This document shows positions 1 through 13,416 of a DNA stretch of 13,416 bases, in pieces (the stretch's first letter is position 1; each line of letters starts with the position of its first letter). The notes beneath the pieces were generated by a model that did not search any database, had not been told where the DNA came from, and saw only the letters and a program-made list of their open reading frames with translations. The position numbers and the translations under genes were made by a program. The DNA comes from Cyclobacteriaceae bacterium (GTDB taxonomy: Bacteria; Bacteroidota; Bacteroidia; Cytophagales; Cyclobacteriaceae): NCBI GenBank assembly GCA_025455445.1, contig JALOMN010000011.1, forward strand, positions 1 through 13,416, read 5' to 3'.

Positions 1-3000
1 TGATTACTGCAACATTTACTACAGGAATAAAAGGGTTGTCAAGAACAGTAACACTCACCGGATCTGAAGCGCAACCGACAGTTGTATTGGTTACAGTCAG
101 ACTATAACTACCTGCAGCTTTATTATTTACCACAGAAGTATTCTCACCAGAAGACCAGCTAAATGTATACCCTGTAAAAGGAGAAGTAACCGGTTGACCT
201 AAGTAGGTGATTGTATTAACTGATGCTGTTCCGTTAGCACCCACACAGAACGTATTATCAGTTGCCAGTGCCGTTACTATAGGTTTTTGCTGTTGATCCG
301 ACACTTCAACGGTGCGGGTATTTCTACATCCGTTTTCTGTATTGGTAACTTGCACCGTATAAAATCTTCCGGTAGCACCTTGCAATGTATCAAGGCTAAT
401 CGGTGAATTAGAAACCAAATATCCGGTGGCATCAAATCCCCTATGCCATTCAAATGCATATTTTGTTGGAGTTCCTGCACCATCCACATCTGTCACACGC
501 ACACCACCATTGGGTAAGTTTGGATCACAATTAGTAGATGGAATTGCATTAGCCTGGATAACTGGTGGCACTGTAATATTTAATACTTCTGCCGTCTGGG
601 CGAGGGCTGGGCAGGCAGTTCCGTTTCGTGTAACTACCACCGTATAAAATCCAGAGGTTAATGCTGAAATTGTATTAGACGTTTCAGGTCTTGTTGTTCC
701 GATAGCTTGAGAACCATCATACCATTGGAAAGTATAATTCGCCAGATTGTTATCCGGATTTCCACCAACCGTAATAGTAGCGGTAACACTACCACTATTC
801 ACAACTCCGGAAGCGGTAACCAACGCAGGGTCACATATTCCATTTGGTGTAGATACAAGTGTTACCACCGGAATTTCTAATTGTTCAGATACAGCAGCAA
901 AAGTAGTTGCAAAACACTGCGAGGCAGAGATTACTTTTACAGTATAGAACTGCCCGCCACCTGTTACGTTTTCAGCAATGCTTCCATTAACTCCGGAAAC
1001 CTGAAGATGACGGTTTGCAGGTAATGTATTTTGACCCACATACCATTCAAAAGTAAAATCAGCTGCAGGTTGCGGAACACCTCCAATAGTCACTAATGCC
1101 TCAAGTCTTCCATTTGGATTTAAAGGGTCGCAAGAAGTTTGGGGAGCAAGTTCTGCTATAGTAACGTCCGGTGTAACCGTTTGACTTTGCACCTCGGCCT
1201 GAACAGGATCAGAATCACATTGACTTAGAATGTTAGTAGCAACTACTTCATAGAAACCAGCCGGTAATCCGGTTCGGGTAGCTCCTGTTCCATTAATTGG
1301 AGGTAATTGACTTCCCCTTGTTGATGTTGCATTATCATAGAAATACCAATCAAATGTATATTCACTTGCGAGGCCTGGTGAAACAGTTGCAGTTACAGAT
1401 CCATTATTGATATCATCACAACTTAATATTGGAATTGAACTTGGTGTGACGACTGGCACCAAAGCAGTACCATCAACCACCCTACTTTGTGAGTCAAAGC
1501 ATCCATTCTTTCCAATGAGCACAGAGTAATTACCTCTTCTTAACCCATTGGCAACTGCCGTGGTGATACCCAAAGAACCGTTCTGATCAAACCATTCAAA
1601 TGAATAACCAGAGTTACCACCACTTACTACAGCTTCTAACCTACCATTTGGCGGATTACATGAAGTCTGATCCGTTACATTAATAGTGAATGGAGGTATA
1701 TTGGAACGCACTGAATCAATTGCAACGGTAACCGTATCACTACTACAATTGGCTGTGCGGTGCCGGGCATAAACCGTATAATTACCCTCGAGTAAGCCAG
1801 TATATATTGGTCCGGTAAAATCAACTAGTGGAATCGGCTGAGCAACACTTCCATTACTCCAATAAAAATCATAATCTACTGTATTCTCAACACCATTGGT
1901 TAAGATAAATGCACGGGCAGAACCATTTGGTGGCGCTACACATTTTTCGTTTGGATTAGATTGTATTGCTGTAATTTTTGCGGGTAGAGGATTAATTCTT
2001 GCTTTGCGAATATTGTCATAGTCGCACTCAAAAATAGCGGTATTAGGTAAAGATATCGGAGTTGGTACTGTTGTGCCAGCATCATTCAATACTACCCACA
2101 CTGAATCTGAACCAATACCCGTTACGTTAACATTATCGACAGAGAAAATGTCGTTTCTATTAAAACTGTTTAAGTTTAGTTCTATGGTACTCAGTTTTAT
2201 ACCCCCGGGTTTTTCAGGGTCTGATGCATAAAATGAAACAGGAACAATTCCGCTGAGGGCAACATCTCCGAGGTTGGTGATTTTAAATGAAACGGTAAAA
2301 TTTAAATCCGGGCACGTGGGTGATATAACCGTTGGCTCGACCGCAAAAGCAATATCAGGGGCAGCATAAATCGGACATCCATCCGGATTTAAAAAGGGTG
2401 ATTGATTTAAGAATTTATTAAGTGGGCGACTGGGTCCTTGTGTACAACTGCCGTTAGAAAAAGTTAACCAGTGCTTTTGAATTTGTTTAGGTATGGTAAG
2501 ATCATCATTCACATTCACCACAAAATAGCCATGTTGATTCCATACCCTGCGCGCAGGCACCCACGGTTCAGCTGCCGATTTAAACGCTCTTATATGAGAA
2601 AACCTTGAGAATGATAGATTATTAAAATTTTGATTGGCAAGAAAGTCATCAAATCCACAGGTAACACAAAGTTCTGTAGACCCATCTGCATCTACATCTG
2701 CTACAATTGGATATTCACGGTTAGTTCTTGAAACGCAAGTTTGTTGATTATAAACAGTGCCATCGGTACCATTAATGATATATAAGAATCGCTCATCACG
2801 ATATACAATTTCAGATTTACCATCCCCATTAAAATCAAAAAGTGTACAACCTGTGTATCCTGAAGTTTCTTCATTGATGTTGACTCGCCATAATAAAGTT
2901 AAATCTTCCTTAAGTGCATATAAATAACGTCCGGAAACATAAGAGGCATTTAACCTTCCATCACCATCCAAATCCGCTATATTCACACGCCCCGTACCAC

Positions 3001-4069
3001 TTCCCCAGCCATTGGGTCCATACGCACTTGCTAGATCTCTATATGTTGAAAGTTGATCATTTCTTACATCCCAAAAGAAAATAGTTGTATTCGCCCCATG
3101 AGCGTTGGTAGATCCAGATGCAACAATATCAATATAACCATCCTGGTTAAAATCTGCGATACTGGTAGCGTTATATTCGTTCCGAATAAAATAATCCGTT
3201 CGCGATCTTATTAATGTGAGTGAACCTGAGTTAGCTGAACGCGTTCCAAGATTTACCCTATAAATTGCTAAGCCAATAATCAATTCCAATTGTCCATCAT
3301 CAGCAACATTCAACTCTAAATCATTTCCATTTTGATCTAAAATATTAGCTGCTACCGGTCCACCGTTTATTCGATTGTAAGTAGGTGTTGTTGACTGTAT
3401 AATGCGAACACCCGTATGCGCATCATAAATTTCATCTTTGGCATATAACTCAGTAAGCCCGTCATTATCAAAATCAGCTAATCCAAAGTTGATGGGATCA
3501 CCGCGCAATCGTTGCGCAGAAGTCCACAATAAATTAAGATTACAGTCATACGAAAAAAGATAGATTCCATCATTTGCAGTTCCAGGTAAATTTTGAAATC
3601 CGATAAAGAAAATTTCCGCACAGTTATCATTGTTAATATTACCAATGGCTATCTCCCAATAGGGTTCCCAGGTTACATTTATCTGGCGTTTAATACTTCC
3701 GTCATTTCCATTTAAAATAAATAAATTCCTGGTATAACGGTTCATGGTAACAAACTCCGGCATCCCATCTCTGTCTAAATCACCAATAGCCATCCTGGAA
3801 AGGTGATTGGTGGTTTCATTGGGTGTAGAAAAATCCAACGTCATGGTAAACTGCGGAAACTGTGGGGGCACAGCATTGCAAGTGGATGGCACAATGAAAT
3901 CACATTGATTGGCAGGATTAGAAGAACAATCACTATCGTAACAATCTATAAATCCATCAAAGTCATCATCTAGTCCATTGTTACAAATTTCAACGGGTGG
4001 CTGTGAATAGGAAGAAATAAAAATTATTGAAAACGCGAATGAAACCAACAGGTATTTCAAACTTCTCAT
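1..4069 (-). CDS. Giant secreted FG-GAP/VCBS and SprB-like repeat surface protein (C-terminus off the edge)
   Basis: Reading the minus strand from ATG at 4069 gives 1356 codons with no stop, running off the left edge. Residues 1-22 form a signal peptide (MRSLKYLLVS, hydrophobic core, then SYS|Q). Residues 29-48 hold a Cys-flanked acidic motif (CNNGLDDDFDG...) of the MopE/EF-like Ca-binding kind. Residues about 90-470 carry about eight FG-GAP/VCBS-type repeats with a D-x-D/N-x-DG core, near 97, 144, 198, 257, 304, 364, 411 and 458, a beta-propeller layout. Residues about 570-680 resemble CARDB. From 708 on there are seven 80-102-residue Ig-like repeats starting at Cys710, 804, 884, 980, 1079, 1181 and 1275, each with NG near the start, an aromatic-x-W core (FEW, FDW, FQW) and a second Cys near the end, as in SprB/PKD-like repeats. 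Family knowledge suggests a type IX-secreted adhesin or gliding-type surface protein. The sorting domain would lie outside the window. Its ligand is unknown. Confidence 0.88.
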   Translation of the reverse strand, partial: MRSLKYLLVSFAFSIIFISSYSQPPVEICNNGLDDDFDGFIDCYDSDCSSNPANQCDFIVPSTCNAVPPQFPQFTMTLDFSTPNETTNHLSRMAIGDLDRDGMPEFVTMNRYTRNLFILNGNDGSIKRQINVTWEPYWEIAIGNINNDNCAEIFFIGFQNLPGTANDGIYLFSYDCNLNLLWTSAQRLRGDPINFGLADFDNDGLTELYAKDEIYDAHTGVRIIQSTTPTYNRINGGPVAANILDQNGNDLELNVADDGQLELIIGLAIYRVNLGTRSANSGSLTLIRSRTDYFIRNEYNATSIADFNQDGYIDIVASGSTNAHGANTTIFFWDVRNDQLSTYRDLASAYGPNGWGSGTGRVNIADLDGDGRLNASYVSGRYLYALKEDLTLLWRVNINEETSGYTGCTLFDFNGDGKSEIVYRDERFLYIINGTDGTVYNQQTCVSRTNREYPIVADVDADGSTELCVTCGFDDFLANQNFNNLSFSRFSHIRAFKSAAEPWVPARRVWNQHGYFVVNVNDDLTIPKQIQKHWLTFSNGSCTQGPSRPLNKFLNQSPFLNPDGCPIYAAPDIAFAVEPTVISPTCPDLNFTVSFKITNLGDVALSGIVPVSFYASDPEKPGGIKLSTIELNLNSFNRNDIFSVDNVNVTGIGSDSVWVVLNDAGTTVPTPISLPNTAIFECDYDNIRKARINPLPAKITAIQSNPNEKCVAPPNGSARAFILTNGVENTVDYDFYWSNGSVAQPIPLVDFTGPIYTGLLEGNYTVYARHRTANCSSDTVTVAIDSVRSNIPPFTINVTDQTSCNPPNGRLEAVVSGGNSGYSFEWFDQNGSLGITTAVANGLRRGNYSVLIGKNGCFDSQSRVVDGTALVPVVTPSSIPILSCDDINNGSVTATVSPGLASEYTFDWYFYDNATSTRGSQLPPINGTGATRTGLPAGFYEVVATNILSQCDSDPVQAEVQSQTVTPDVTIAELAPQTSCDPLNPNGRLEALVTIGGVPQPAADFTFEWYVGQNTLPANRHLQVSGVNGSIAENVTGGGQFYTVKVISASQCFATTFAAVSEQLEIPVVTLVSTPNGICDPALVTASGVVNSGSVTATITVGGNPDNNLANYTFQWYDGSQAIGTTRPETSNTISALTSGFYTVVVTRNGTACPALAQTAEVLNITVPPVIQANAIPSTNCDPNLPNGGVRVTDVDGAGTPTKYAFEWHRGFDATGYLVSNSPISLDTLQGATGRFYTVQVTNTENGCRNTRTVEVSDQQQKPIVTALATDNTFCVGANGTASVNTITYLGQPVTSPFTGYTFSWSSGENTSVVNNKAAGSYSLTVTNTTVGCASDPVSVTVLDNPFIPVVNVAVI

Positions 4070-4187
4070 AGTCAGTATCTATTGAACATGCTTTATATAC
4101 GCTCTTACTCTTTAAAGTAACACACCTTTTAATCATGAAAGTTATAAAATATTCATTAATAACAGCCTATACAGGAAGTAACTTAAT

Positions 4188-4200
4188 CATGAATTTCATG
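4188..4200. repeat. 13-bp perfect palindrome in the divergent promoter region
   Basis: CATGAATTTCATG is a perfect inverted repeat of 6 bp arms around one central T. The left part also belongs to an 11-bp direct repeat, TTAATCATGAA, found at 4129-4139 and 4183-4193, 54 bp apart. It lies between the proposed -7 element and the ATG of the minus-strand surface gene, so it could be an operator for a dimeric regulator. The rest of 4070-4294 shows only AT-rich sequence and the two promoter elements. Confidence 0.35.
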
Positions 4201-4222
4201 TACAAACAACACACGATGTAAA

Positions 4223-4230
4223 CAAAAGTA
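4223..4230 (-). promoter_or_regulatory. Candidate -7 element (TACTTTTG) for the giant surface protein gene
   Basis: The minus strand reads TACTTTTG, an exact match to the Bacteroidota sigma-factor -7 consensus TAnnTTTG. No convincing -33 TTTG lies at the usual distance. It would give a 5' untranslated region of about 150 nt before the ATG at 4069. A nearer 7-of-8 match, TAACTTTC at 4144-4137, is an alternative. Confidence 0.4.
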
Positions 4231-4254
4231 ACCTGAGTGAATAATAAAATTGGT

Positions 4255-4262
4255 TACATTTG
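4255..4262 (+). promoter_or_regulatory. Candidate -7 element (TACATTTG) for the outer-membrane barrel gene
   Basis: TACATTTG matches TAnnTTTG exactly. Transcription would start near 4267, leaving a 5' untranslated region of about 27 nt before ATG 4295. The -33 region around 4231 is not a clear TTTG. The position argues against the in-frame TTG at 4250 as a start, since that codon would not be in the transcript. Confidence 0.45.
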
Positions 4263-4294
4263 GAAATCAAATCGTATCACCGCGAATGCAATTC

Positions 4295-5143
4295 ATGAAA
4301 TTCAGGATATCCAATCTACACATTGCAATTCTGCTCATCGTCTTATTGGCACCAATAAGTTCGCATCATGTGCGCGCACAAATCTTAGTAGGACCTACCG
4401 TGGGTGGTCAATTAAACCTGTATAGATTTGATGATAAAGACTTAAAAAAATTCTACAAACTGAATCCTGATTATAATTTTAATGCCGGCTTCAGCGTGGC
4501 CTTTCGTGCGAATAAAAATTTCTTTTTAAACACCTCCTTTCTTTATACTCAAAGAAGTAAGATTCTGGAAGGTGTATTGGAAACAGGGCTTAGCAACAAA
4601 ACAACCTTAAGGTTTATTGATGTTCCGATACTTTATACCGCTGAATTTAAATCCAAGTTCGGAAGAGACAAAGTGTTTAAATGGTACCTGGGTGCAGGGC
4701 CAACCATAAGTTATTGGCTGGGCGGAAAAGGTACTTTTAAAAATGGCGACTTGAATGAAAACTTAATCAATCCACCAGATTATGACCTACCCTATAAAAT
4801 CACATTCCGTAAAGATTCAGCTGATGTTACGATGAATGAGATGAATGTAGCAATACCTAACAGGCTGCAATTAGGATTAAACCTCGCAGTTGGATTAATC
4901 TTCGAACCGGCTCAAAATAAAAAAGTAATGGTGAATGCACGATATTCCTTTATGCAAAGCTTTTTAAGCAGGGAGAGCAATGGCACATTTGGCTTACCCA
5001 CAATTGTATTCTATGAAGATGAACTAGCCGTAAGAAATCATGAGCTTGTACTATCCGTTCAATATTTTATTGACTTGCGAACTGAACAAAGAAAAAAGGG
5101 AAAGAGTACGGTGAAAATGAAGAACGGAAAGCCAGTAAAATAA
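4295..5143 (+). CDS. Outer-membrane beta-barrel protein (PorT/OMP_b-brl type)
   Basis: A 282-residue protein. Residues 1-28 look like a signal peptide: MKFRIS, a hydrophobic stretch (AILLIVLLAPIS), then VRA|Q as the cleavage site. The mature part has alternating-residue amphipathic strands typical of an 8-10-stranded barrel, for example LVGPTVGGQLNLYRF, FSVAFRANKNFFLNTSFLY, WYLGAGPTISYWL, LGLNLAVGLIF and HELVLSVQYFIDL. The last roughly 20 residues are Lys-rich and would lie in the periplasm. Small Bacteroidota barrels of this size usually belong to the OMP_b-brl_2/PorT-like families, some tied to type IX secretion, but the family does not fix a function. The start was chosen at ATG 4295; ATG 4286 (three residues longer) is equally possible. 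The upstream in-frame TTG at 4250 is rejected because the -7 promoter motif overlaps it. It is transcribed divergently from the giant surface gene. Confidence 0.8.
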   Translation: MKFRISNLHIAILLIVLLAPISSHHVRAQILVGPTVGGQLNLYRFDDKDLKKFYKLNPDYNFNAGFSVAFRANKNFFLNTSFLYTQRSKILEGVLETGLSNKTTLRFIDVPILYTAEFKSKFGRDKVFKWYLGAGPTISYWLGGKGTFKNGDLNENLINPPDYDLPYKITFRKDSADVTMNEMNVAIPNRLQLGLNLAVGLIFEPAQNKKVMVNARYSFMQSFLSRESNGTFGLPTIVFYEDELAVRNHELVLSVQYFIDLRTEQRKKGKSTVKMKNGKPVK

Positions 5144-5265
5144 TGGATTTGACTTCAGGAAATTTACCCGCCCTTGCAGTAGTGGGCGGCAAAGCCACTC
5201 CTACTGTCAGGGTCAGGTTTAACACAGTGCAACGCTATGGCAAAATAGGATTTACTGTGCTTTAG
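5143..5265 (+). CDS. Possible 40-residue small protein coupled to the barrel gene
   Basis: The ATG at 5143 shares its A with the TAA stop of the barrel gene (TAATG), the same arrangement seen at 11543 between two genes that look real. The ORF has 40 codons, begins MDLTSGNLPALAVVGG, is basic in the middle (VRVRF, QRYGK) and ends at TAG 5263-5265. No family is recognised, and there is no signal peptide or membrane helix. Several hairpins overlap it, so the coding pattern may be incidental to a structured or mobile element. The overlap is the main argument for a gene. Confidence 0.25.
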   Translation: MDLTSGNLPALAVVGGKATPTVRVRFNTVQRYGKIGFTVL

Positions 5266-5282
5266 AGAACCCTAAAGTAGGG
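5168..5282. repeat. Hairpin-rich intergenic island (terminator region, small RNA or element remnant)
   Basis: Successive inverted repeats lie within 115 bp. CCGCCC 5168-5173 pairs with GGGCGG 5184-5189. Alternatively CAGTAG 5177-5182 pairs with CTACTG 5201-5206, enclosing GGC-AAA-GCC (5188-5196). CACAGT 5223-5228 pairs with ACTGTG 5254-5259, with CTAT/ATAG nested inside. CTTTAG 5260-5265 pairs with CTAAAG 5272-5277, and this competes with CCCTA-AAG-TAGGG 5270-5282. The stretch looks richer in G+C than its surroundings. No T-run follows, so it is not a standard intrinsic terminator. It may serve as a 3' end for the barrel transcript, encode a structured RNA, or be a REP/MITE-like remnant. Confidence 0.45.
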
Positions 5283-5371
5283 ACATGAGTTTCAATTTTC
5301 CTAAACATTTTCCAAAACTTTATTTACACTGAAAAAATGGCCTTTTTTGCGTCAAATTGGCATCTTTAAAA

Positions 5372-6022
5372 ATGATTGAGGACAACTATAAGCAACGCGG
5401 ACTTCGTAATAAATTGGTCAAAAAACTTCAGGAAAAAGGCATTTCTGATCAGCGAGTACTCACAGCCATTGGAAAAGTGCCCAGACACGCCTTTTTTGAC
5501 GATGCCCTGCTAAATCATGCATATGAAGACAAGGCCTTCCCCATTGGCGAAGGGCAGACAATTTCACAACCTTATACCGTAGCCTTTCAAAGTGAGAAAC
5601 TGGATGTAAAACCCGGTTGCAAGGTGCTGGAAATTGGAACTGGTTCTGGCTATCAGGCTGCAGTATTGATAGAAATGGGGGCCAAAGTTTATACCATTGA
5701 ATATAACCGGAAATTGTATGAGCGAACTAAAGATTTCCTTCCCCTACTGGGTTATAAACCTAACTTCTTTTATGGAGATGGCTCCAAAGGATTACCCGCC
5801 AAAGCACCCTTTGATAGAATCCTCGTAACAGCTGGAGCGCCTGTTGTGCCAACTGCCCTAACTGATCAACTTGCTGATGATGGGATGCTGATTATACCCG
5901 TTGGAGACCGTGAACGACAAAAGATGTTAAAGATCACAAAGAAAAACGGAAAGCTTACCCAACAGGAATATGATTACTTTGCCTTTGTACCCCTACTGGG
6001 TGATCAGGGTTGGAAGCATTGA
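5372..6022 (+). CDS. pcm: Protein-L-isoaspartate O-methyltransferase
   Basis: A 216-residue cytosolic enzyme that methylates L-isoaspartyl residues of aged proteins with S-adenosylmethionine, starting their repair to aspartate. Motifs are in the family order: GEGQTISQPYTVAF (59-72, with the catalytic-region Ser65), the SAM-binding motif I VLEIGTGSGYQ (85-95), an acidic end of strand 2 at YTIE (107-110), GDGSKGLP (135-142), LVTAGAP (151-157), LIIPVGD (173-179) and the end motif FVPLLGDQGW (205-214). The length is normal. The start was set at ATG 5372, preceded by an A-rich stretch; the upstream in-frame TTG at 5357 is less likely because family members usually begin close to the EDNYKQRGLR segment. 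It stands apart from its neighbours, with 106 bp to the end of the small upstream ORF. Its last 30 bp overlap the 3' end of thrC on the other strand. No clear TAnnTTTG promoter was found between 5283 and 5371. Confidence 0.95.
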   Translation: MIEDNYKQRGLRNKLVKKLQEKGISDQRVLTAIGKVPRHAFFDDALLNHAYEDKAFPIGEGQTISQPYTVAFQSEKLDVKPGCKVLEIGTGSGYQAAVLIEMGAKVYTIEYNRKLYERTKDFLPLLGYKPNFFYGDGSKGLPAKAPFDRILVTAGAPVVPTALTDQLADDGMLIIPVGDRERQKMLKITKKNGKLTQQEYDYFAFVPLLGDQGWKH

Positions 6023-7300
6023 TTTAAATTCATTAAAATCGGCAGACATTTTTATTGCGCTCTTCTCACGTTTTATAAATTCATTTAATCGCTCTGGTAT
6101 GTTAATTGGCCGCGCAAGCACCTTTTCAACCACCTCATTAAATTTTGCAGGGTGTGCTGTTTCTAAAAATATTCCAACGGCATTATCAAATTCAACCATA
6201 TGTTTTTTCAGTGCGAGGTATCCTATAGCCCCATGTGGATCCATGATATAATCATACTTTGAATACACTTCTTTGAGTGCACTCATAGTATCATCATCAG
6301 AAAAGGAATCTCCTATCACATCATTTGATAACGCTTGAAAATTGTCATTATACAAATTAAGCATGCGCGGAAAATTACTTGGATTACCAACATCCATCGC
6401 ATTGCTTATAGTTGATATCGAAGGTCGAGGAATAAACTCTTTGGATTTAAGATAATCAGGTACCACTTTATTGACATTTGTTGCCGCGATGAATTTCTTT
6501 ATAGGAAGACCCATTTTTTTTGCCAGCAACCCTGCGGTGATATTTCCAAAATTACCGCTGGGCACTGAGAAGATGATATCTTTTTTCAATTGCTTTATTT
6601 TGGAATACGCATAGAAATAATAAAATGATTGCGGAATCAAGCGGGCAATATTGATTGAGTTTGCTGAGGTGAGAAAATACTTTTTATTTAACTCAACATC
6701 GCTAAATGCTTGCTTTACTAAGCGCTGGCAATCATCAAAAGATCCATCTACTTCCAATGCAATTATATTCTTACCGAGTGTTGTGAACTGCTTTTCCTGG
6801 ATATCACTCACTTTACCGGATGGATATAAGACAATGACCTGAGTTCCATCTACTCCTAAAAAGCCATTTGCCACGGCACTTCCCGTATCACCTGATGTGG
6901 CAACCAAAATTGTTATCTTTTGATTTTGTTCTTGTGAAAAATAACCCAGCAAACCGGAAAGAAAACGCGCACCAAAATCCTTAAACGCTAACGTGGGTCC
7001 ATGAAACAATTCCAATGCATAAATGTCATCTTCTATCTTAACTAATGGTGCATCAAATTGAATGGTATGTGATACAATTCTAAAAAGTTCTTCATGAGGT
7101 AAATTCTTACCAATCAATTGACTTGCTACATAATATGAAATTTCTTCAAAGGAAAGCTTATCAATCGATTCAAAAAATGAGGGTGGAATTTTTGGAATGG
7201 TCTCAGGCATATATAATCCCCGGTCTGATGCAAGCCCATGCATCACCGCTTCCCGCAAGGTGACAAACTTGTTATGGTTATTTGTACTATAAAAATTCAT
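5993..7300 (-). CDS. thrC: Threonine synthase
   Basis: A 435-residue pyridoxal-phosphate enzyme that converts O-phosphohomoserine to threonine, the last step of the pathway. The PLP lysine lies in GPTLAFKDFGARF (Lys107). Other fold-type-II signatures are ATSGDTGSA (134-142), TSANSINIARLIPQ (211-224), the phosphate-binding SVPSGNFGN (245-253) and STISNAMDVGNPSNF (296-310). The N-terminal segment FVTLREAVMHGLASDRGLYMPE is the usual substrate-domain start (residues 12-33). The length and all key residues are normal. ATG 7300 lies 27 bp after the thrB stop, as expected for the last gene of thrABC. The stop TAG (5995-5993) falls inside the pcm coding region of the opposite strand, so no separate intergenic terminator exists for this operon. 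Confidence 0.97.
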   Translation of the reverse strand: MNFYSTNNHNKFVTLREAVMHGLASDRGLYMPETIPKIPPSFFESIDKLSFEEISYYVASQLIGKNLPHEELFRIVSHTIQFDAPLVKIEDDIYALELFHGPTLAFKDFGARFLSGLLGYFSQEQNQKITILVATSGDTGSAVANGFLGVDGTQVIVLYPSGKVSDIQEKQFTTLGKNIIALEVDGSFDDCQRLVKQAFSDVELNKKYFLTSANSINIARLIPQSFYYFYAYSKIKQLKKDIIFSVPSGNFGNITAGLLAKKMGLPIKKFIAATNVNKVVPDYLKSKEFIPRPSISTISNAMDVGNPSNFPRMLNLYNDNFQALSNDVIGDSFSDDDTMSALKEVYSKYDYIMDPHGAIGYLALKKHMVEFDNAVGIFLETAHPAKFNEVVEKVLARPINIPERLNEFIKREKSAIKMSADFNEFKSMLPTLITQ

Positions 7301-7327
7301 ACTCAGATGTTTCTAATAGCTCACAGA

Positions 7328-8266
7328 TTATTCAATTATTCTCGCCCCTTGTTGATTCACTTTTGATATAAAAACATCACTTCGTAAATCATGCTTTAAA
7401 AACTGTTCTTTTATCAACTGCCCTGTCCTTTCCGCACTCGCAATATCAATGCTTAGTGAAAAAACGGTTGGCCCTGACCCTGATATTCCGAAACCCAATG
7501 AGCCTGCTTGAATCGCTATCTCGCGCATGTGATGAAACCCGGGTATAAATGCTGATCGGATTGGCTCTGCAAATACATCTTTGAGCGATCGGGCTATCAA
7601 TTCACCATCTGGCTTCATCAGACCTAACATCAAACCTGCAATATTTCCGCTCTGGATAATTGCATCTGTTAATTTAACTGTAGGCTTTAATACCTTGCGC
7701 GAATCCGATGTATTAAGCTCAAGATGAGGATGCACCAGTGTGCAATATAATTCGATGGCAAGTGGAATTTTGATAACATCCAAAGGCTGATAATCGCGCA
7801 CTAAAACAAAACCACCTAATAATGAAGGGGCAACATTGTCTGCATGTGCGGAGCCACATGCTATCCTTTCTGATTCCATGGCATGTTCAACAAGTTCAGT
7901 TCTGCTCAATGGCTCACCTAACAAATTATTCATGGCTACAAGCGCGGCTACTCCACTGGCTGCACTGGAACCCATACCACTGCCTAAAGGCAAATTTTTA
8001 TATAATGTAATATCAACTCCAATCGGATGTCCCGTTTTTCTTAATAAAGATTGAATCGCCACACTAGCCGTATTCTTATTTGCATCCAGAGGAAGTTTCC
8101 CCTGATCCCCGATAATTGATTCAATTCTGATTTCAGTGTCATCGCGAAGCGTAAGTAGTACTTCATCACCCGGGTTATCTACAGCAAAACCAAGCACATC
8201 AAATCCACAGCATACATTTGCAACAGTAGCGGGCGCAAATGCTCTCACTTTTCTTTTTATTGACAT
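7328..8266 (-). CDS. thrB: Homoserine kinase
   Basis: A 312-residue GHMP-family kinase that phosphorylates homoserine with ATP to O-phosphohomoserine, the substrate of ThrC. Visible motifs are the N-terminal APATVANVCCGFDVLG (11-26), the ATP-binding GHMP loop NLPLGSGMGSSAASG (91-105), HADNVAPSLLGG (141-152) and the third GHMP motif GISGSGPTVFSL (260-271). The length fits the family. ATG 8266 follows the thrA stop after only four bases, so translation is probably coupled. Cotranscription with thrA and thrC on the minus strand puts it under the leader region upstream of thrA. Confidence 0.97.
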   Translation of the reverse strand: MSIKRKVRAFAPATVANVCCGFDVLGFAVDNPGDEVLLTLRDDTEIRIESIIGDQGKLPLDANKNTASVAIQSLLRKTGHPIGVDITLYKNLPLGSGMGSSAASGVAALVAMNNLLGEPLSRTELVEHAMESERIACGSAHADNVAPSLLGGFVLVRDYQPLDVIKIPLAIELYCTLVHPHLELNTSDSRKVLKPTVKLTDAIIQSGNIAGLMLGLMKPDGELIARSLKDVFAEPIRSAFIPGFHHMREIAIQAGSLGFGISGSGPTVFSLSIDIASAERTGQLIKEQFLKHDLRSDVFISKVNQQGARIIE

Positions 8267-8270
8267 GGCT

Positions 8271-10721
8271 CTAATTAGTATAACTTCCTATGCGAATAAT
8301 ATCAGCAAATACACCAGCAGCGGTAACTTCTGCTCCGGCTCCCGGGCCACGTATCACCATTGGCCGATCATGATAACGCTCAGTTGTAAGTAAAATAATA
8401 TTATCACTTCCAGACAAAGAATAAAATGGATGTTGCTGCCCCACTGATGCAAGGCGTATTGATGTTCTTCCATTTTCTAATATAGCCATATAACGAAGCT
8501 TTTCATTTCTGCTTGCTGCCTCTACTCGAAGTAATTCAAATTTTTCATCGTGCTTCGCTAACAAAGAAAAGAACTTTTCTATCGGTATATCCCCCAAGCA
8601 ATCTTCAGGTACCATATTTTCAACCTGAATCTCATTCAGTTCCAATGTTAAACCAGCTTCTCTTGACAATATCAGAATTTTACGAGCCACATCCATTCCG
8701 TTAAGATCATCGCGTGGATCCGGTTCGGTATAACCTTTTTCTTTAGCCTCCTTTACTACCTCGCTGAACTTTTTCCCCTCGGTAAAAGAACTGAAAATAA
8801 AATTTAATGTACCACTTAACACTGCTTCAATTCGAATCACTTTATCACCGCTTAGCAATAAATCATTCATCGTATTGATTACCGGCAGGCCTGCACCCAC
8901 ATTGGTTTCATAAAGAAATTTAACACCCCTTTTGCGGGCAGTTTCCTTTAATTGATGATATCGAAGCTGCGAACCGGAATTTGCTTTTTTGTTAGGTGTA
9001 ACAATGTTGATGTTTGAGGAAAGAATGGAGCCATAGAATTCTGCCACCTCTTCACTTGATGTGCAATCAACAAAAATACTGTTCGACAAATTGAGCGCGT
9101 TCATGTTTCCAAAAAAATCATTGAGGTTCATACCTTCTCCCTCTTGCAACATCCGTTCTATTGCGCTTTCAGGTTTTATACCATCTTCATTGAAAAACAT
9201 TTTTTTCGAATTAGCAATGCCCACCACATTCACCTCAAGTTGATTTTGTTCGGCCAGTTTGTGGTATTGCTTATGAATCATCGTTAGTAAAGATTTTCCG
9301 ATCAAACCTGTTCCTACCAAAAATAAATTTAAAACCTTTTTATCTGACAAGAAGAATGCCTCATGAAGCACATTAAGCGCCTTGCTTATATCTTGCTCAT
9401 GTACAACCGCGGAAATATTCAATTCTGAAGAACCCTGAGCGATCGCACTTATGTTAATTCCATTTTTACCGAGAGCACTAAACATTCGTCCGCTGACACC
9501 TGGATTATGCTTCATATTCTCGCCCACTATCGCTACAATTGCAAGGTCACTTTCTACCTGAACTTCTTCCATTTCTTTACTTCGTATTTCATATTGAAAC
9601 TCACGCTCAATGGATGCTACTGCCTGCTTGACTTTATTGCTTTCTATTGCAAAACAAATTGAGTGTTCAGAAGATGCCTGACTAATTAAGATGACATTTA
9701 TTTTTTGATCTGCTAATGCACTGAATAATCGCTTTGACACACCTACCACGCCCATCAAACCACTCCCCTGCACACTGAGTAAACTGATTTTATCCATTGA
9801 TGAAATACCCTTAATAATAAGACTCTTATTATAGGAAGTATCCTTTATTACCGTTCCTTCAAAGGAGGGATTAAATGTATTTTTTATCCAGATAGGAATT
9901 TGATTCACCATGGCAGGTTGCATGGTAGCCGGAAATATTACCTTGGCCCCAAAATGCGATAACTCCATCGCCTCCTGATAAGTCATTTCCTTTACGGTAA
10001 ATGCTTTTTTTACTTTGCGAGGATCAGCAGTCATCATTCCATCAACATCAGTCCATATTTCCAGTGAGGAAGCGTGAAGAGCGCCAGCCAATATCGCAGC
10101 TGTATAATCAGAACCACTTCTTCCAATAGTGGTTGTTTCACCGGATTCAGACGAACCAATAAACCCGGTTACCACTTGAAGTTTAGGATGTAATTGATAG
10201 TATTCGCGAATTAATTGGTTTGTAATGGGGAAAATTATACGGGCGTTACCAAAATGATTATCCGTACGAATTATATCTCGGGCATCGAGAAATTCTGCAG
10301 CTAAACCTTTGTCTTTCATTGCTTCTGCAATGATGTAGGCAGATAGACGTTCACCAAAGCTCATTATATAATCAAGTGTGCGAGGTGTACGTTCCTTAAC
10401 CAGGAAAACACCATGTAACACATCTTCAAGTTCATTAATAGTAAACTTTACTTGTGCAATTGCTGAACTTTGACTTTGTATTCCAATTAATTCACGCACT
10501 GCATCAAGGTGTCTCTTTTCAAGTTCCTGCAGTTTGTCTTTATAATCTGACTTGCCCTCTAATGCTAGCGAGCTTAGTAAAATTAACGTATCCGTAATTC
10601 CGCCAAATGCTGAGAACACAACTGAAATTGGTTGTTGTTCATAAGTCTTAATTATATTAATTACTGAATTTATCCTTGAAGGAGTTGAAACAGACGAACC
10701 ACCAAATTTTAAAATGATCAT
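8271..10721 (-). CDS. thrA: Bifunctional aspartokinase / homoserine dehydrogenase
   Basis: An 816-residue fusion catalysing the first and third steps from aspartate to homoserine. The kinase domain spans about 1-290: KFGGSSV (5-11), SFGERLSAYI (121-130), TTIGRSGSDYTAAIL (197-211), WTDVDGMMTADPRK (223-236) and HFGAKVIFPATM (256-267). Two ACT domains follow: about 312-390, with GLMGVVGVSKRLFSAL and ISQASSEHSI, and about 393-460, with NPGVSGRMFSALGKNGINI and IAQGSSELNIS. The latter is the known site class for threonine feedback. The dehydrogenase begins with the NAD(P) loop FLVGTGLIGKSLL (467-479), then NVGAGLPVI (607-615), LSGTLNFIF (635-643) and the signature around YTEPDPRDDLNGMDVARK (664-681). 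Length and order match Escherichia coli ThrA. ATG 10721 is the first gene start after the leader. Nothing is missing or broken. Confidence 0.97.
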   Translation of the reverse strand: MIILKFGGSSVSTPSRINSVINIIKTYEQQPISVVFSAFGGITDTLILLSSLALEGKSDYKDKLQELEKRHLDAVRELIGIQSQSSAIAQVKFTINELEDVLHGVFLVKERTPRTLDYIMSFGERLSAYIIAEAMKDKGLAAEFLDARDIIRTDNHFGNARIIFPITNQLIREYYQLHPKLQVVTGFIGSSESGETTTIGRSGSDYTAAILAGALHASSLEIWTDVDGMMTADPRKVKKAFTVKEMTYQEAMELSHFGAKVIFPATMQPAMVNQIPIWIKNTFNPSFEGTVIKDTSYNKSLIIKGISSMDKISLLSVQGSGLMGVVGVSKRLFSALADQKINVILISQASSEHSICFAIESNKVKQAVASIEREFQYEIRSKEMEEVQVESDLAIVAIVGENMKHNPGVSGRMFSALGKNGINISAIAQGSSELNISAVVHEQDISKALNVLHEAFFLSDKKVLNLFLVGTGLIGKSLLTMIHKQYHKLAEQNQLEVNVVGIANSKKMFFNEDGIKPESAIERMLQEGEGMNLNDFFGNMNALNLSNSIFVDCTSSEEVAEFYGSILSSNINIVTPNKKANSGSQLRYHQLKETARKRGVKFLYETNVGAGLPVINTMNDLLLSGDKVIRIEAVLSGTLNFIFSSFTEGKKFSEVVKEAKEKGYTEPDPRDDLNGMDVARKILILSREAGLTLELNEIQVENMVPEDCLGDIPIEKFFSLLAKHDEKFELLRVEAASRNEKLRYMAILENGRTSIRLASVGQQHPFYSLSGSDNIILLTTERYHDRPMVIRGPGAGAEVTAAGVFADIIRIGSYTN

Positions 10722-10781
10722 AACTACTGATGTAAAAAATTAAATGAAATACTTGAAGGCCTTGATGCCTGATAAAATATT

Positions 10782-10828
10782 AAAAAACCCGCGATGTGTA
10801 AAAGGCAAATATGTCGGGAGCTACCCCG
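10782..10828 (-). terminator. Threonine attenuator: antiterminator/terminator switch before thrA
   Basis: On the minus strand CCCG (10818-10815) can pair in two ways. Pairing upstream with CGGG (10828-10825), which overlaps the last codons of the leader peptide, makes a compact hairpin around GTAGCT. Pairing downstream with CGGG (10791-10788) makes a stem followed directly by T6 (10787-10782), an intrinsic terminator 60 bp before thrA. The two pairings exclude each other. The terminator stem is short (4 bp, or 5 with a bulge) with a loop of about 23 nt, so its strength is uncertain. By analogy with known thr leaders, a ribosome stalled early in the Thr codons would leave the upstream CGGG free and prevent termination. 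Confidence 0.6.
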
Positions 10829-10901
10829 TAATGGTTGTCGTGGTAATTTGCTCAGTTATTGCAGAGCAAGATTGGAGAAGATATTGACTGATGATTGACA
10901 A
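10821..10901 (-). CDS. thrL: Threonine operon leader peptide (Thr/Ile-rich)
   Basis: The minus strand reads Q-I-T-T-T-T-I-T-G-stop, with codons ATT ACC ACG ACA ACC ATT ACG GGG TAG at 10847-10821. Five of the last seven sense codons are Thr and two of the last eight are Ile, like the leader of the E. coli thr operon. The frame is open back to TGA at 10916-10914 but holds no ATG. The best start is TTG at 10901 (26 residues, LSIISQYLLQ...); ATT at 10910 is an alternative. The peptide end overlaps the antiterminator arm, and thrA follows 99 bp after the stop. The role would be to sense charged tRNA-Thr. The Thr run and position are clear; the start codon is the uncertain part. Confidence 0.6.
   Translation of the reverse strand: MSIISQYLLQSCSAITEQITTTTITG
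10845..10873 (-). promoter_or_regulatory. Candidate pause hairpin of the thr leader
   Basis: On the minus strand TTGCTC (10869-10864) pairs with GAGCAA (10853-10848) around a 10-nt loop. After one C-A mismatch the stem continues with AAT (10873-10871) against ATT (10847-10845), giving nine pairs. It ends exactly at the first Ile codon of the Ile/Thr run. A hairpin here fits the pause structure that lets the lead ribosome catch up with RNA polymerase in attenuated amino-acid operons. Confidence 0.5.
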
Positions 10902-10917
10902 CTGAAAAATATTTCAT
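10852..10917 (-). CDS. Short ATG-initiated ORF upstream of and out of frame with the Thr codons
   Basis: ATG at 10917 opens 21 codons (MKYFSVVNHQSISSPILLCN...) that end at TGA 10854-10852, five bases before the Ile/Thr codon run in the neighbouring frame. A +1 shift anywhere in this ORF would join it to the Thr-rich frame. It may be the true leader start after a frameshift or sequence error, a second leader ORF whose termination reloads ribosomes onto the Thr frame, or chance. The frame also extends further upstream to ATG 11052, antisense to the thioesterase start. Confidence 0.3.
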   Translation of the reverse strand: MKYFSVVNHQSISSPILLCNN

Positions 10918-11021
10918 GCAATAAGCAAATTGACTTCGTGTAATGCAAAGTTTTTTATTGATTTTTGCTGCTATTAAAAGCAAACTAACACTAAGTAGTA
11001 TAACGCTACCGATTGCAATAC

Positions 11022-11543
11022 ATGAGAAAGAAAAAATATCCCCGTGAATCATTTGTTAATATGACCGAGCTCGTATTACCAAACGATACGAATACATTGA
11101 ATAACCTTATGGGTGGAAGGTTGATGCACTGGATGGACATCGTATCCGCGATTGCCGGGCAAAAGCATTGCAACAGCACAGTAGTCACCGCATCTGTTGA
11201 TAATATTTCATTCCGTTCACCAATACAATTAGGGGATGTAGTTACACTTAGGGCTCGTGTAACCCGTGCATTCAACTCTTCAGTTGAAATCAGAATAGAT
11301 GTGGAAGCGGAAAATATTCCGGAAGGAAAAAAAATTGCCAGCAACTCAGCTTATTTTACGTTCGTGGCTGTAGACAAAGAAGGTAAACCGATTTCAGTTC
11401 CAGAAGTAGAACCTGAAACTGAAGAGGAGCGCACTTTATATGAAGGTGCGCTGCGCAGAAGGCAGCTTCGCCTGATACTAGCAGGAAGAATGAAACCACA
11501 GGAAGCCAACGAACTTAAATCCATCTTCGACATTAAGGAATAA
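11022..11543 (+). CDS. Acyl-CoA thioesterase, hotdog fold (YciA/BACH type)
   Basis: A 173-residue cytosolic enzyme predicted to hydrolyse acyl-CoA to free acid and CoA. The family signature is visible: LPNDTNTLNNLMGGRLMHWMD (19-39, with the conserved GG and the catalytic-type Asp39), then a hotdog strand run with VVTASVDNISFRSPIQLGD (54-72), LRARVTRAFNSSVEIRIDV (77-94) and SAYFTFVAVD (109-118). The C-terminal tail of about 55 residues is charged (EVEPETEEERTLYEGALRRR) and probably helical. Substrate range cannot be read from the sequence. ATG 11022 was chosen over the in-frame TTG at 11013 because ATG starts dominate here and MRKKKYPRES gives a normal N-terminus. The stop overlaps the next ATG (TAATG), so the two genes form an operon. 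It is divergent from the thr leader, with which it shares the 10918-11021 region; only imperfect -7 matches are seen there. Confidence 0.88.
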   Translation: MRKKKYPRESFVNMTELVLPNDTNTLNNLMGGRLMHWMDIVSAIAGQKHCNSTVVTASVDNISFRSPIQLGDVVTLRARVTRAFNSSVEIRIDVEAENIPEGKKIASNSAYFTFVAVDKEGKPISVPEVEPETEEERTLYEGALRRRQLRLILAGRMKPQEANELKSIFDIKE

Positions 11544-11926
11544 TGAACATAGATATTTTTGAAAGTGTATTTCAAGAGGAAGTTTATTCCATTAAGCCAA
11601 AACTGGTGATAGTCATAGAAAACTCCTGGCAGGCACTAAGCGAGCAGGAAAGGGAGCTATTAAAAAAGATACTTGGAGCCTTAAAAATTTCCCTTGAGTC
11701 AATCCAAATAGTAAGTCAATCCGACTTCAAGATATCATCCTTTGAAAACAGAACAGAAAAACTAATTTATTTCGGAGCAAACCCGGGTGACTTTGCTAAT
11801 TATCAGCAGCATACCTTTTCAGGCATCTCATTTATTTGCTCAGAAGCACTGTCTCAATTGTTACTCAATGAAGCAGCAAGAAAGCAACTCTGGGCAGGAT
11901 TGAAGGACATGTTCACAAATTCTTAA
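11543..11926 (+). CDS. Small protein, possibly psi-like (HolD-like) clamp-loader subunit
   Basis: A 127-residue soluble protein without signal peptide or membrane helix. It has an N-terminal helix, a strand KLVIVIENS (20-28), a helix LSEQERELLKKILGALKIS (32-50), a strand SIQIVSQ (53-59), a strand KLIYFGA (73-79), ISFICSEAL (95-103), and ends with SQLLLNEAARKQLWAGLKDMF (104-124). The layout resembles E. coli HolD: a hydrophobic strand, a helix with LLxxILxALxxSxxxIxI, and a closing motif of the form L-x-x-L/LL-x-N/-x-x-R-x-x-LW-x-x-I/L. This is a by-eye likeness only, and no family is recognised with certainty. The ATG overlaps the thioesterase stop in TAATG, so the two are translationally coupled. 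An AT-rich stretch with a short inverted repeat and T-runs (11944-11964) follows and could be a weak terminator. Confidence 0.65.
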   Translation: MNIDIFESVFQEEVYSIKPKLVIVIENSWQALSEQERELLKKILGALKISLESIQIVSQSDFKISSFENRTEKLIYFGANPGDFANYQQHTFSGISFICSEALSQLLLNEAARKQLWAGLKDMFTNS

Positions 11927-11975
11927 GTGCTTTTCATTAACGAAATTATAAATTTTAATTTTTTAGGTCTTCTTC

Positions 11976-11983
11976 TATCTTTG
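11976..11983 (+). promoter_or_regulatory. -7 promoter element (TATCTTTG) of the pyrophosphatase gene
   Basis: TATCTTTG matches the Bacteroidota -7 consensus TAnnTTTG exactly and lies in the only gap before the pyrophosphatase gene. The -33 region near 11953 is T-rich (TTTT) rather than a clean TTTG. Transcription would begin near 11988, giving a 5' untranslated region of about 60 nt that contains a weak CCTG/CAGG hairpin (12001-12023). Confidence 0.55.
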
Positions 11984-12049
11984 CGGTGCTTTTTTTAAGC
12001 CCTGACTGGAGGTTTTCAGCAGGAGATGATATAAACCAATAAAACAGAT

Positions 12050-13416
12050 ATGCAAAATCTATTGTATTACTTGCCCCTTTTTGGAGTTCTGGGGCTTCTT
12101 TATGTAGCATGGAAAAGTGCCTGGGTTAGTAACCAAGATGCAGGAACTGACAAAATGAAAAAAATTGCCGGTCACATTGCAGAAGGCGCAATGGCATTCT
12201 TAAAAGCAGAATATCGGATTCTGGCCATATTCGTTGTTTGTGTGTCGTTATTGTTAGGCGTTACAGCCAATAGCGAAACATCTTCCCCGCTTGTAGCAGC
12301 TTCCTTTGCAATTGGCGCATTTACTTCTGCTTTAGCTGGATTTATTGGTATGCGCGTGGCTACAAAAGCGAATGTTCGCACTACGCAAGCAGCCCGCACG
12401 AGCTTAGGCAAGGCTCTCGAAGTAGCTTTTACTGGTGGCTCGGTAATGGGCATGGGTGTAGTTGGCCTGGGCGTATTAGGTCTCAGCCTTCTGCTTATTG
12501 TATACTCCAATATCTTTGGATTCGAAACGCAAGCTCAGGTAAACCAGGTATTAACCATTGTTACCGGTTTCTCATTCGGAGCTTCCTCTATAGCACTCTT
12601 TGCCCGTGTGGGTGGTGGTATTTATACTAAAGCAGCCGATGTGGGTGCTGACCTGGTAGGTAAAGTAGAAGCCGGTATTCCGGAAGATCACCCCCTTAAT
12701 CCGGCAACAATTGCTGATAACGTGGGCGATAACGTAGGTGATGTAGCGGGTATGGGTGCAGATCTATTCGAATCATATGTAGGCTCTATTGTAGGTTCAA
12801 TGGTGCTAGGTGCTGCCTTCATGGTAGACGGATTTGCGGATCAATTTAATGGATTGTCTGCCGTGCTTTTACCATTAGTGCTAGCCGCAGTAGGAATTGT
12901 GATGTCATTTATCGGCACATTCTTCGTTAAGGTTAAAGAAGGTGGTGATCCTCAAAAAGCGTTGAACACTGGCGAGTTTGTTTCCTCTGCTATTATGATT
13001 GCAGCTTCCTACTTTATTATCACTTGGATGCTCCCTGCAGAATGGACCTATCATGATTTATTATATAGAGATGCGGCTGGTGAGCCAATCGTAAGAACGA
13101 TGACTGCCATAGGAATTTTCTGGGCAACTATCATTGGTTTAATTGGAGGTCTTTTAGTTGGCCTAATTACTGAATATTATACTGGAATGGGCAAAGCCCC
13201 TGTGTTGTCAATTGTACGTCAATCCTCAACTGGTGCAGCAACCAATATTATAGCAGGTCTTGGAGTAGGAATGATGTCAACAGCGCTTCCGATTTTAATT
13301 ATTGCACTTTCTATCATGGGTGCCTTTTACTTTGGCGGTCTTTATGGAATTGCAATTGCTGCGGTAGGTATGCTTTCAAATCTAGGAATTCAATTAGCAG
13401 TAGATGCCTATGGTCC
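12050..13416 (+). CDS. hppA: Membrane-bound (probably Na+-translocating) pyrophosphatase, C-terminus off the edge
   Basis: The first 455 residues of a pyrophosphate-driven ion pump; the family is usually about 650-900 residues. Multiple membrane helices are visible, beginning at [14 protein letters not shown] (8-21). The substrate site is complete for this half: [20 protein letters not shown] (188-207), [21 protein letters not shown] (211-231), with the Asp and Lys residues that bind Mg-PPi. EYYT (375-378) and [12 protein letters not shown] (390-401) follow. After [18 protein letters not shown] comes Glu241 in LFESYVG. In known families Na+ pumps have Glu at this place, whereas K+-independent H+ pumps have it one helix turn later (LFGSYAE). 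The Lys/Ala position that decides K+ dependence lies beyond the edge, so dual Na+/H+ transport cannot be excluded. It stands as its own transcription unit behind an exact -7 motif. Confidence 0.95.

Follow-up and report, generated by a model that had tools for sequence, protein, structure and literature searches.

The leader of the Escherichia coli threonine operon, thrL (RF00506), encodes a Thr/Ile-rich peptide directly before thrA, and a strong hairpin followed by T9 lies between the two. According to the main text of PMC4824070, over 20 bp separate the terminators of E. coli amino-acid attenuators from the leader gene, avoiding repression by the ribosome; a ribosome near the stop codon represses an adjacent terminator. 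The same text describes the pyrBI terminator as lying inside the leader, an overlap of regulatory hairpin and leader ORF that allows direct blocking by the ribosome (PMC4824070). In E. coli hisL and thrL, a nascent hairpin lies upstream of the leader pause, as stated in the main text of PMC9291695. For Bacteroidota, the main text of a study on Flavobacterium psychrophilum reports strong clues that leader peptides attenuate amino-acid operons and does not name threonine (PMC9723704). We found no description of a Bacteroidota thr leader in the open-access main texts searched, which included PMC7366714, PMC4833913, PMC2864571 and PMC1183508.

We analysed a stretch of 13,416 nt from a Cyclobacteriaceae bacterium (GCA_025455445.1, contig JALOMN010000011.1, positions 1 to 13,416 of the forward strand), hereafter the window. 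Its minus strand carries a threonine operon in the order leader, thrA, thrB, thrC (Table 1), and 291 bp separate thrA from a divergent gene at 11013-11543 with sub-cutoff similarity to an acyl-CoA thioesterase family. The intergenic region between this thioesterase-like gene and the thr leader contains an inverted repeat of the CTAAC-T-GTTAG type (10982-11000), conserved at the same place in several of the loci L005-L021; it may serve as an operator or belong to the divergent promoter. The conserved block around AAACTTTGCA may be a promoter element of the Bacteroidota -7 type, judging by the consensus. At the far end of the operon, the 3' ends of thrC and of a plus-strand protein-L-isoaspartate methyltransferase gene (5357-6022) overlap by 30 bp (5993-6022).

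Table 1. Features of the thr locus in the window, with coordinates in window positions.
Feature	Position	Strand	Description	Basis
thrC	5993..7300	-	threonine synthase	TIGR00260
thrB	7328..8266	-	homoserine kinase	NCBIfam NF002288/TIGR00191
thrA	8271..10721	-	bifunctional aspartate kinase/homoserine dehydrogenase I, 816 aa	NCBIfam NF006959, 1048 bits
Candidate H3	10757..10770	-	AGGC/GCCT, 4 bp, weak	fold; near the covarying hairpin of TAA/TGA-stop relatives
CGGG + T6	10782..10791	-	CGGG 10791-10788, T6 10787-10782; earlier taken as terminator 3' arm	
CATAT motif	10809..10813	-	2 nt after H2	motif comparison across leaders
H2	10815..10828	-	CGGGG-UAGC-UCCCG, stop UAG 10823-10821 in tetraloop	fold, -6.3 kcal/mol
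Leader ORF	10821..10901	-	TTG start, 26 codons + TAG, LSIISQYLLQSCSAITEQITTTTITG and stop	translation; in-frame GTG/ATG/TTG starts in relatives
Control codons	10824..10847	-	ITTTTITG	sequence; conserved Thr/Ile-rich tail in clade leaders
H1	10848..10869	-	TTGCTC/GAGCAA, 10869-10864 with 10853-10848, adjoining the control codons	fold, -7.0 kcal/mol
Conserved block	10944..10962	-	around AAACTTTGCA	by eye, upstream regions of relatives

Relatives were drawn from thrA searches covering same-genus orthologues, the best 80 named loci and class-wide loci, the last giving a strong AK-HSD match in 101 of 395 genomes. The closest named loci belong to Cytophagales/Cyclobacteriaceae MAGs, Chryseolinea, Ohtaekwangia, Chryseosolibacter, Dawidia and Parachryseolinea. 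From these we assembled 49 nonredundant leaders of the window's family (the clade leaders), for which the motif ACGGGGT[AG][AG] was required; two same-family loci off the list (L161 and L251) lack it, and L028, L063, L068 and L075 were left out as their upstream regions are missing. The shorter GGGGTRR was not found in Runella, Dyadobacter, Spirosoma and similar loci, bar one chance match (L100).

Like E. coli thrL, the clade leaders encode a Thr/Ile-rich peptide directly before thrA. In the leader frame, Thr and Ile make up 393 of 490 codons, against 7 and 4 in the other two frames, and ACC, ACT, ACA and ACG are all in use, a pattern expected from selection on the peptide. The Thr/Ile-rich tail ends in TG and a stop in 47 of the 49, and in TTTGW in the other two. 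An initial annotation of this DNA had read an E. coli-like threonine attenuator here and had suggested aligning the thrA upstream regions of relatives; the Thr run indeed proved conserved within the window's family. The run itself (I-T-T-T-T-I-T-G-stop) is present as described (ATT ACC ACG ACA ACC ATT ACG GGG TAG, 10847-10821, minus strand), and run, arms and T6 all lie within 200 bp of thrA. The 5' edge of the annotated interval, 10917, is not the leader start, as the ATG there is out of the Thr frame, reads MKYFSVVNHQSISSPILLCNN and ends after 21 codons. Judged from the sequence, the start is most likely TTG 10901; an in-frame GTG or ATG opens the Thr frame in several relatives. The hairpin before the control codons, given as 9 bp, was recovered as 6 bp (H1), and 9 bp are reached only with a bulged C plus AAT/ATT. 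H1 stems of the CTCAA/TTGAG type were seen by eye in a subset of the TAG-stop relatives. The total folding energy of the leader was ordinary and uninformative (z -0.82 and -0.25). We are highly confident that thrABC is preceded by a leader peptide mediating threonine attenuation.

The proposed terminator fared differently. It would consist of CCCG (10818-10815) pairing with CGGG (10791-10788) ahead of T6, and these letters do occur in the right order. As a terminator the stem is weak, however, with 4 bp, a 23-nt loop and -2.9 kcal/mol, a frailty that the annotation had itself pointed out. In the ensemble fold of 10829-10782, one probed pair of this stem had a probability of 0.0016, and one probed CGGG:CCCG pair of the hairpin around the stop codon (H2) a probability of 0.98. 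A consensus scan of the window for terminators found none where 1.0 was expected. We counted as intrinsic terminators all runs of at least five T that follow a hairpin of -5 kcal/mol or better. By this test the 49 clade leaders, window included, have no terminator ahead of thrA, unlike E. coli. Pairing is thus conserved among relatives for the CGGG:CCCG stem and not for the terminator stem. Seen as a mutually exclusive antiterminator/terminator pair, the arrangement is not conserved: the 2:3 stem is kept and a conserved 3:4 terminator is missing. H3 was considered as an intrinsic terminator and rejected by the relaxed terminator test. A structure competing with H2, in which its GGGG pairs with RNA further downstream, was likewise discarded (mean z -0.16 over 49 leaders, no better than shuffles); long downstream complements to GGGG occur in a few leaders (L065, L061, L117). 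The Rfam Thr_leader model, which scores 122 bits on the E. coli control with a cutoff of 55, had no match at E<=1 in the window or in three further leaders of the hairpin type; the loci scored were L001, L024, L136 and L236. With no terminator by the test applied, no Rfam match and Thr codons that reach into the hairpin, an E. coli-like geometry is not supported, and the switch is very probably something other than an E. coli-like terminator.

Intrinsic terminators are nevertheless used by attenuators of the same family. We compared the hisG loci L163-L178 (13 genomes of the genus and three of the family), whose leaders are classical histidine attenuators, e.g., MKNTQNIHGHHHHANHMYGRSLF followed by a stop. 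These his leaders carry a control-codon peptide like the thr leaders and come partly from the same genomes, but differ by their terminators, which 14 of the 16 leaders have, each at -14 kcal/mol or lower, the window's own genome (L164) among them. Under a strict perfect-stem rule, the count was 6/16 for his leaders, 12/12 for family f59 and 0/82 for the others; it was the relaxed rule that raised the his leaders from 6 to 14. With 14/16 his leaders against 0/49 thr leaders, the window's family uses intrinsic terminators in attenuators, though not at thr.

H2 takes up the end of the leader. The annotated antiterminator arm overlapping the end of the peptide was borne out, with CGGG (10828-10825) opposite CCCG (10818-10815) and both arms conserved in the family. 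Relatives with a TAA or TGA stop have the form ACGGG-GURA-CCCGU or nearly so, and most others GGG(G)-UAGC-(K)CCC; the CCC arm is present in 48 of the 49 clade leaders, L015 being the exception. Codon -2 (Thr ACG) falls inside the 5' arm in 49/49 clade leaders, which were selected by ACGGGGTRR although no listed locus lacked the motif, and in two further leaders of the family. The E. coli thr leader, by contrast, has no stop-codon hairpin by the rule applied here. A strict hairpin rule was passed by 33 of 52 leaders of the family, and the other 19 keep about three GC pairs. Single H2 hairpins are little better than dinucleotide shuffles (median z -0.5 in the window's family, above 0 in f52 and f33), so the argument for H2 is its recurrence at the same place with different arms.

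Across 40 genomes of the genus, a 16-nt pattern round the stop occurs once each in 25, and the reversed control pattern once. Of these 25 sites, 23 are directly before thrA matches, the other two being those of G509 and G511. The 15 genomes without the pattern include G007, which has a TGG variant, G006, which is cut by a contig edge, and G005. In L022 and L055, the H2 arms are kept around a loop codon TGG, with the stop displaced by three codons (TTTGWRP and stop); the hairpin thus seems to count for more than the exact position of the stop. G005 carries a divergent thr operon (L161) with a ThrA 41% identical to that of the window. Its own leader contains nine Thr codons and, ahead of the stop, the palindromic hairpin ACCCC-GTAC-GGGGT, which suggests that operon and leader were replaced together. 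Another locus of the family, L251, has no Thr leader.

Stop hairpins were also found in other Bacteroidota families, where their arms are unrelated in sequence and the C and G sides are often exchanged. Examples are CATGCCC-TAAG-GGGCATG in f4, CCCGG-TAA-CCGGG in f13, TACCCC-TTA-GGGGTA in f72, TACCCC-ATAAC-GGGGTA in f41, and AACCCC-ATAA-GGGGTT and CAACCC-GTTAA-GGGTTG in f55; in some cases, such as f52, f75 and several f72 leaders, its 3' end coincides with the stop or lies directly upstream of it. For counts sorted only by Thr content, we used 109 loci, namely 98 of the 101 class-wide matches (leaving out G000, its genus mate G210 and the N-terminally cut G310) and 11 same-genus loci. Outside the window's family and f59, a strict stop hairpin was present in 19/25 leaders with at least five Thr, from six families, in 6/9 with four and in 4/53 with three or fewer. 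It was present in all six loci of the window's family with at least five Thr (five from other genera plus L161, three of them also among the 49), and in 0/15 f59 leaders. Other stop codons in the same regions gave 36/1189, and the his leaders 2/16. Terminator-like hairpins were present in 3/25, 1/9 and 4/53 by falling Thr content, in 0/6 of the window's family and in 15/15 of f59. In f72, a pattern combining the hairpin with CATATAATC was discarded: it hit nine of 60 genomes (10 sites) against three genomes for the reversed control, and a quick look placed a thrA start close behind only at the two known thrA leaders, L264 and L265, with no such leader at the other eight.

Family f59 thus provides a counterpart within the same class, with the same operon and a Thr/Ile leader peptide as in the window's family, but with terminators (-8 kcal/mol or below) in every leader in place of stop hairpins. 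In 12 f59 leaders, Thr codons lie mostly at -8, -9, -12, -13 and -16, while those of the window's family reach -2, inside the hairpin arm. The Rfam Thr_leader model scored 31.7-38.0 bits in 5/6 f59 loci, with the full model at the leader yet under the cutoff of 55; as a reverse-strand match on E. coli reaches 33 bits, these scores lend weak support. On its sequence features, f59 is a genuine E. coli-like design. Within one class, the same Thr-codon sensor in front of the same operon is thus combined with two switches, an E. coli-like one and another that lacks a terminator.

Downstream of the hairpin, the motif CATAT recurs. It is enriched after the stop in leaders outside the window's family (14 of 30; shuffle mean 4.4, maximum 10). 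Measured from the hairpin, 14 of the 27 hairpin leaders outside the family have their first CATAT at a spacing of 7-11 nt (mean 1.1 and maximum 4 in 300 shuffles), the usual spacing in other families with the motif. The outside set behind these counts, the shuffle z, the codon positions and the strict perfect-stem rule was partly picked by eye, four leaders by their hairpin-like tails, and used 12 of the 15 f59 loci. A spacing of 7-11 nt is about the distance from the RNA exit to the active site of RNA polymerase. Among clade leaders with TAA or TGA, 12/22 have CATAY at 9 nt, whereas in the TAG/TGG group 10/27, window included, have CATAT or CATAC 2-3 nt after H2. The spacing argument therefore fails for the window itself, where the motif is only 2 nt away. 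ACATA also occurs in 7/12 f59 leaders. No U-tract follows H2 in the clade leaders (0/49); the T-runs listed with a length of at least five begin 19 nt or further from ACGGGG.

In the TAA/TGA group, H3 precedes thrA and has a NAG loop in 19 of 22 leaders. Its pairs 3-6 are canonical in 67/76 cells and comprise several pair types, whereas sliding by 1-3 leaves 24, 21 and 44; the count is limited to these pairs because the search pattern fixes pair 1 and mostly pair 2. The distance from leader to thrA ranges from 62 to 141 nt. Positions 15-55 from the start of ACGGGG contain 30% C and 10% G in the clade, and a run of C3 or longer starts 26-35 nt from ACGGGG in 41/49 leaders, with none up to 60 nt in seven, including the window. 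The f72 leaders have 18% C and 10% G after the stop, and a Rho-type C-rich site was accordingly rejected as a general feature.

We propose, at somewhat short of an even chance, that the translated Thr/Ile leader attenuates thrABC through H2 and not through an antiterminator/terminator pair. H2 overlaps the leader stop and thus sits where a ribosome must block the hairpin, and we hold direct blocking by a stalled ribosome as the switch with the same reserve. When threonyl-tRNA is sufficient, the ribosome would run off and H2 would fold behind RNA polymerase, holding it near the CATAT position, where transcription would mostly stop, probably aided by a factor. Under a shortage of threonyl-tRNA, the ribosome would park on Thr codons touching or within the 5' arm of H2, and with the hairpin blocked the polymerase would continue into thrA. 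By analogy, such a switch resembles the direct ribosome blocking of E. coli pyrBI more than the E. coli thr attenuator, as H2 holds the stop codon much as the pyrBI hairpin overlaps its leader ORF. The pyrBI leader senses UTP and ends in an intrinsic terminator with a U-tract, whereas H2 has no U-tract and its codons would sense threonine. A nascent hairpin upstream of a pause is likewise what we propose for H2; in E. coli hisL and thrL, a terminator follows the pause, and none was found in the thr leaders of the window's family. Against blocking of H2 count the missing U-tract, the ordinary folding of single H2 hairpins, the leaders that fail the strict hairpin rule or lack the CCC arm or a stop in the loop, the terminator-like hairpins in 3/25 Thr-rich leaders of other families, the ACATA of f59 leaders, the CATAT spacing of 2-3 nt in part of the window's group, and H3, which has no role in this scheme.

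Among other explanations, a hairpin that merely pauses polymerase until the ribosome catches up, with Rho loading on the G-poor RNA behind the leader as the off-switch once the ribosome is gone, appears unlikely. The base composition and C-runs of the clade fit it, as does the spacing from hairpin to CATAT in other families, which suits a hairpin-stabilised pause, but C-richness is not general, f72 being equally poor in G without it. A ribosome stalled upstream would moreover leave the C-run unshielded, so that Rho loading leaves the direction of regulation undefined. We rate as a little less likely again a post-transcriptional effect, in which the position of the ribosome determines whether H2 and H3 protect the thr mRNA or expose it to cleavage, or alters thrA translation. 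The covariation of H3 in the TAA/TGA group, where no terminator was found, speaks for it, and the variable distance between leader and thrA against it.

The classical E. coli-type attenuator, with CGGG:CCCG as antiterminator and CCCG:CGGG plus T6 as terminator, is very unlikely: the window has all arms in the right order with T6 after the 3' arm, yet the second stem hardly forms in the ensemble, and neither the clade nor the Rfam search offers a terminator or a match. Least credible of all is a repressor that uses the conserved ACGGGGTAGC block as its DNA operator, which would make the leader peptide incidental. Nucleotide conservation of the block is very strong within the clade, but it tracks the reading frame, in which the Thr codons vary, and in other families the arms differ or are exchanged while the hairpin stays.

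Returning to direct blocking of H2, the recurrence of rewritten arms raises the possibility, which we hold more loosely than the reading of the window's own leader, of a widespread class of Bacteroidota amino-acid attenuators without intrinsic terminator or antiterminator. In this two-state switch, a ribosome stalled on Thr codons would prevent a pause or termination signal composed of a hairpin, 7-11 nt and CATAT, with arms rewritten in several families, while f59 would serve the same operon with the E. coli-like design. If the stop hairpin is blocked directly, searches based on terminators would miss such attenuators; if this is confirmed, it would to our knowledge be the simplest amino-acid attenuator known.

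Some further observations were made at individual loci. In L133 (f13), long stem-loops with GCCCGGGCTTTTT at their end lie downstream of a thr leader with a stop hairpin, a combination that may be a hybrid of the two attenuator types. Upstream of ilvD in the window's genus we recognised no leader by eye, and the stretch resembles the end of another gene; at L181 and L183 (ilvD, genus g24), branched-chain leader peptides precede what looks by eye like a terminator hairpin with a T-run. Positions 470-512 of L154, near the contig end, match the Rfam direct repeat CRISPR-DR49, and positions 4-131 of L226, upstream of its thr leader, match the Flavo-1 RNA just under the gathering score (39.7 of 42 bits).
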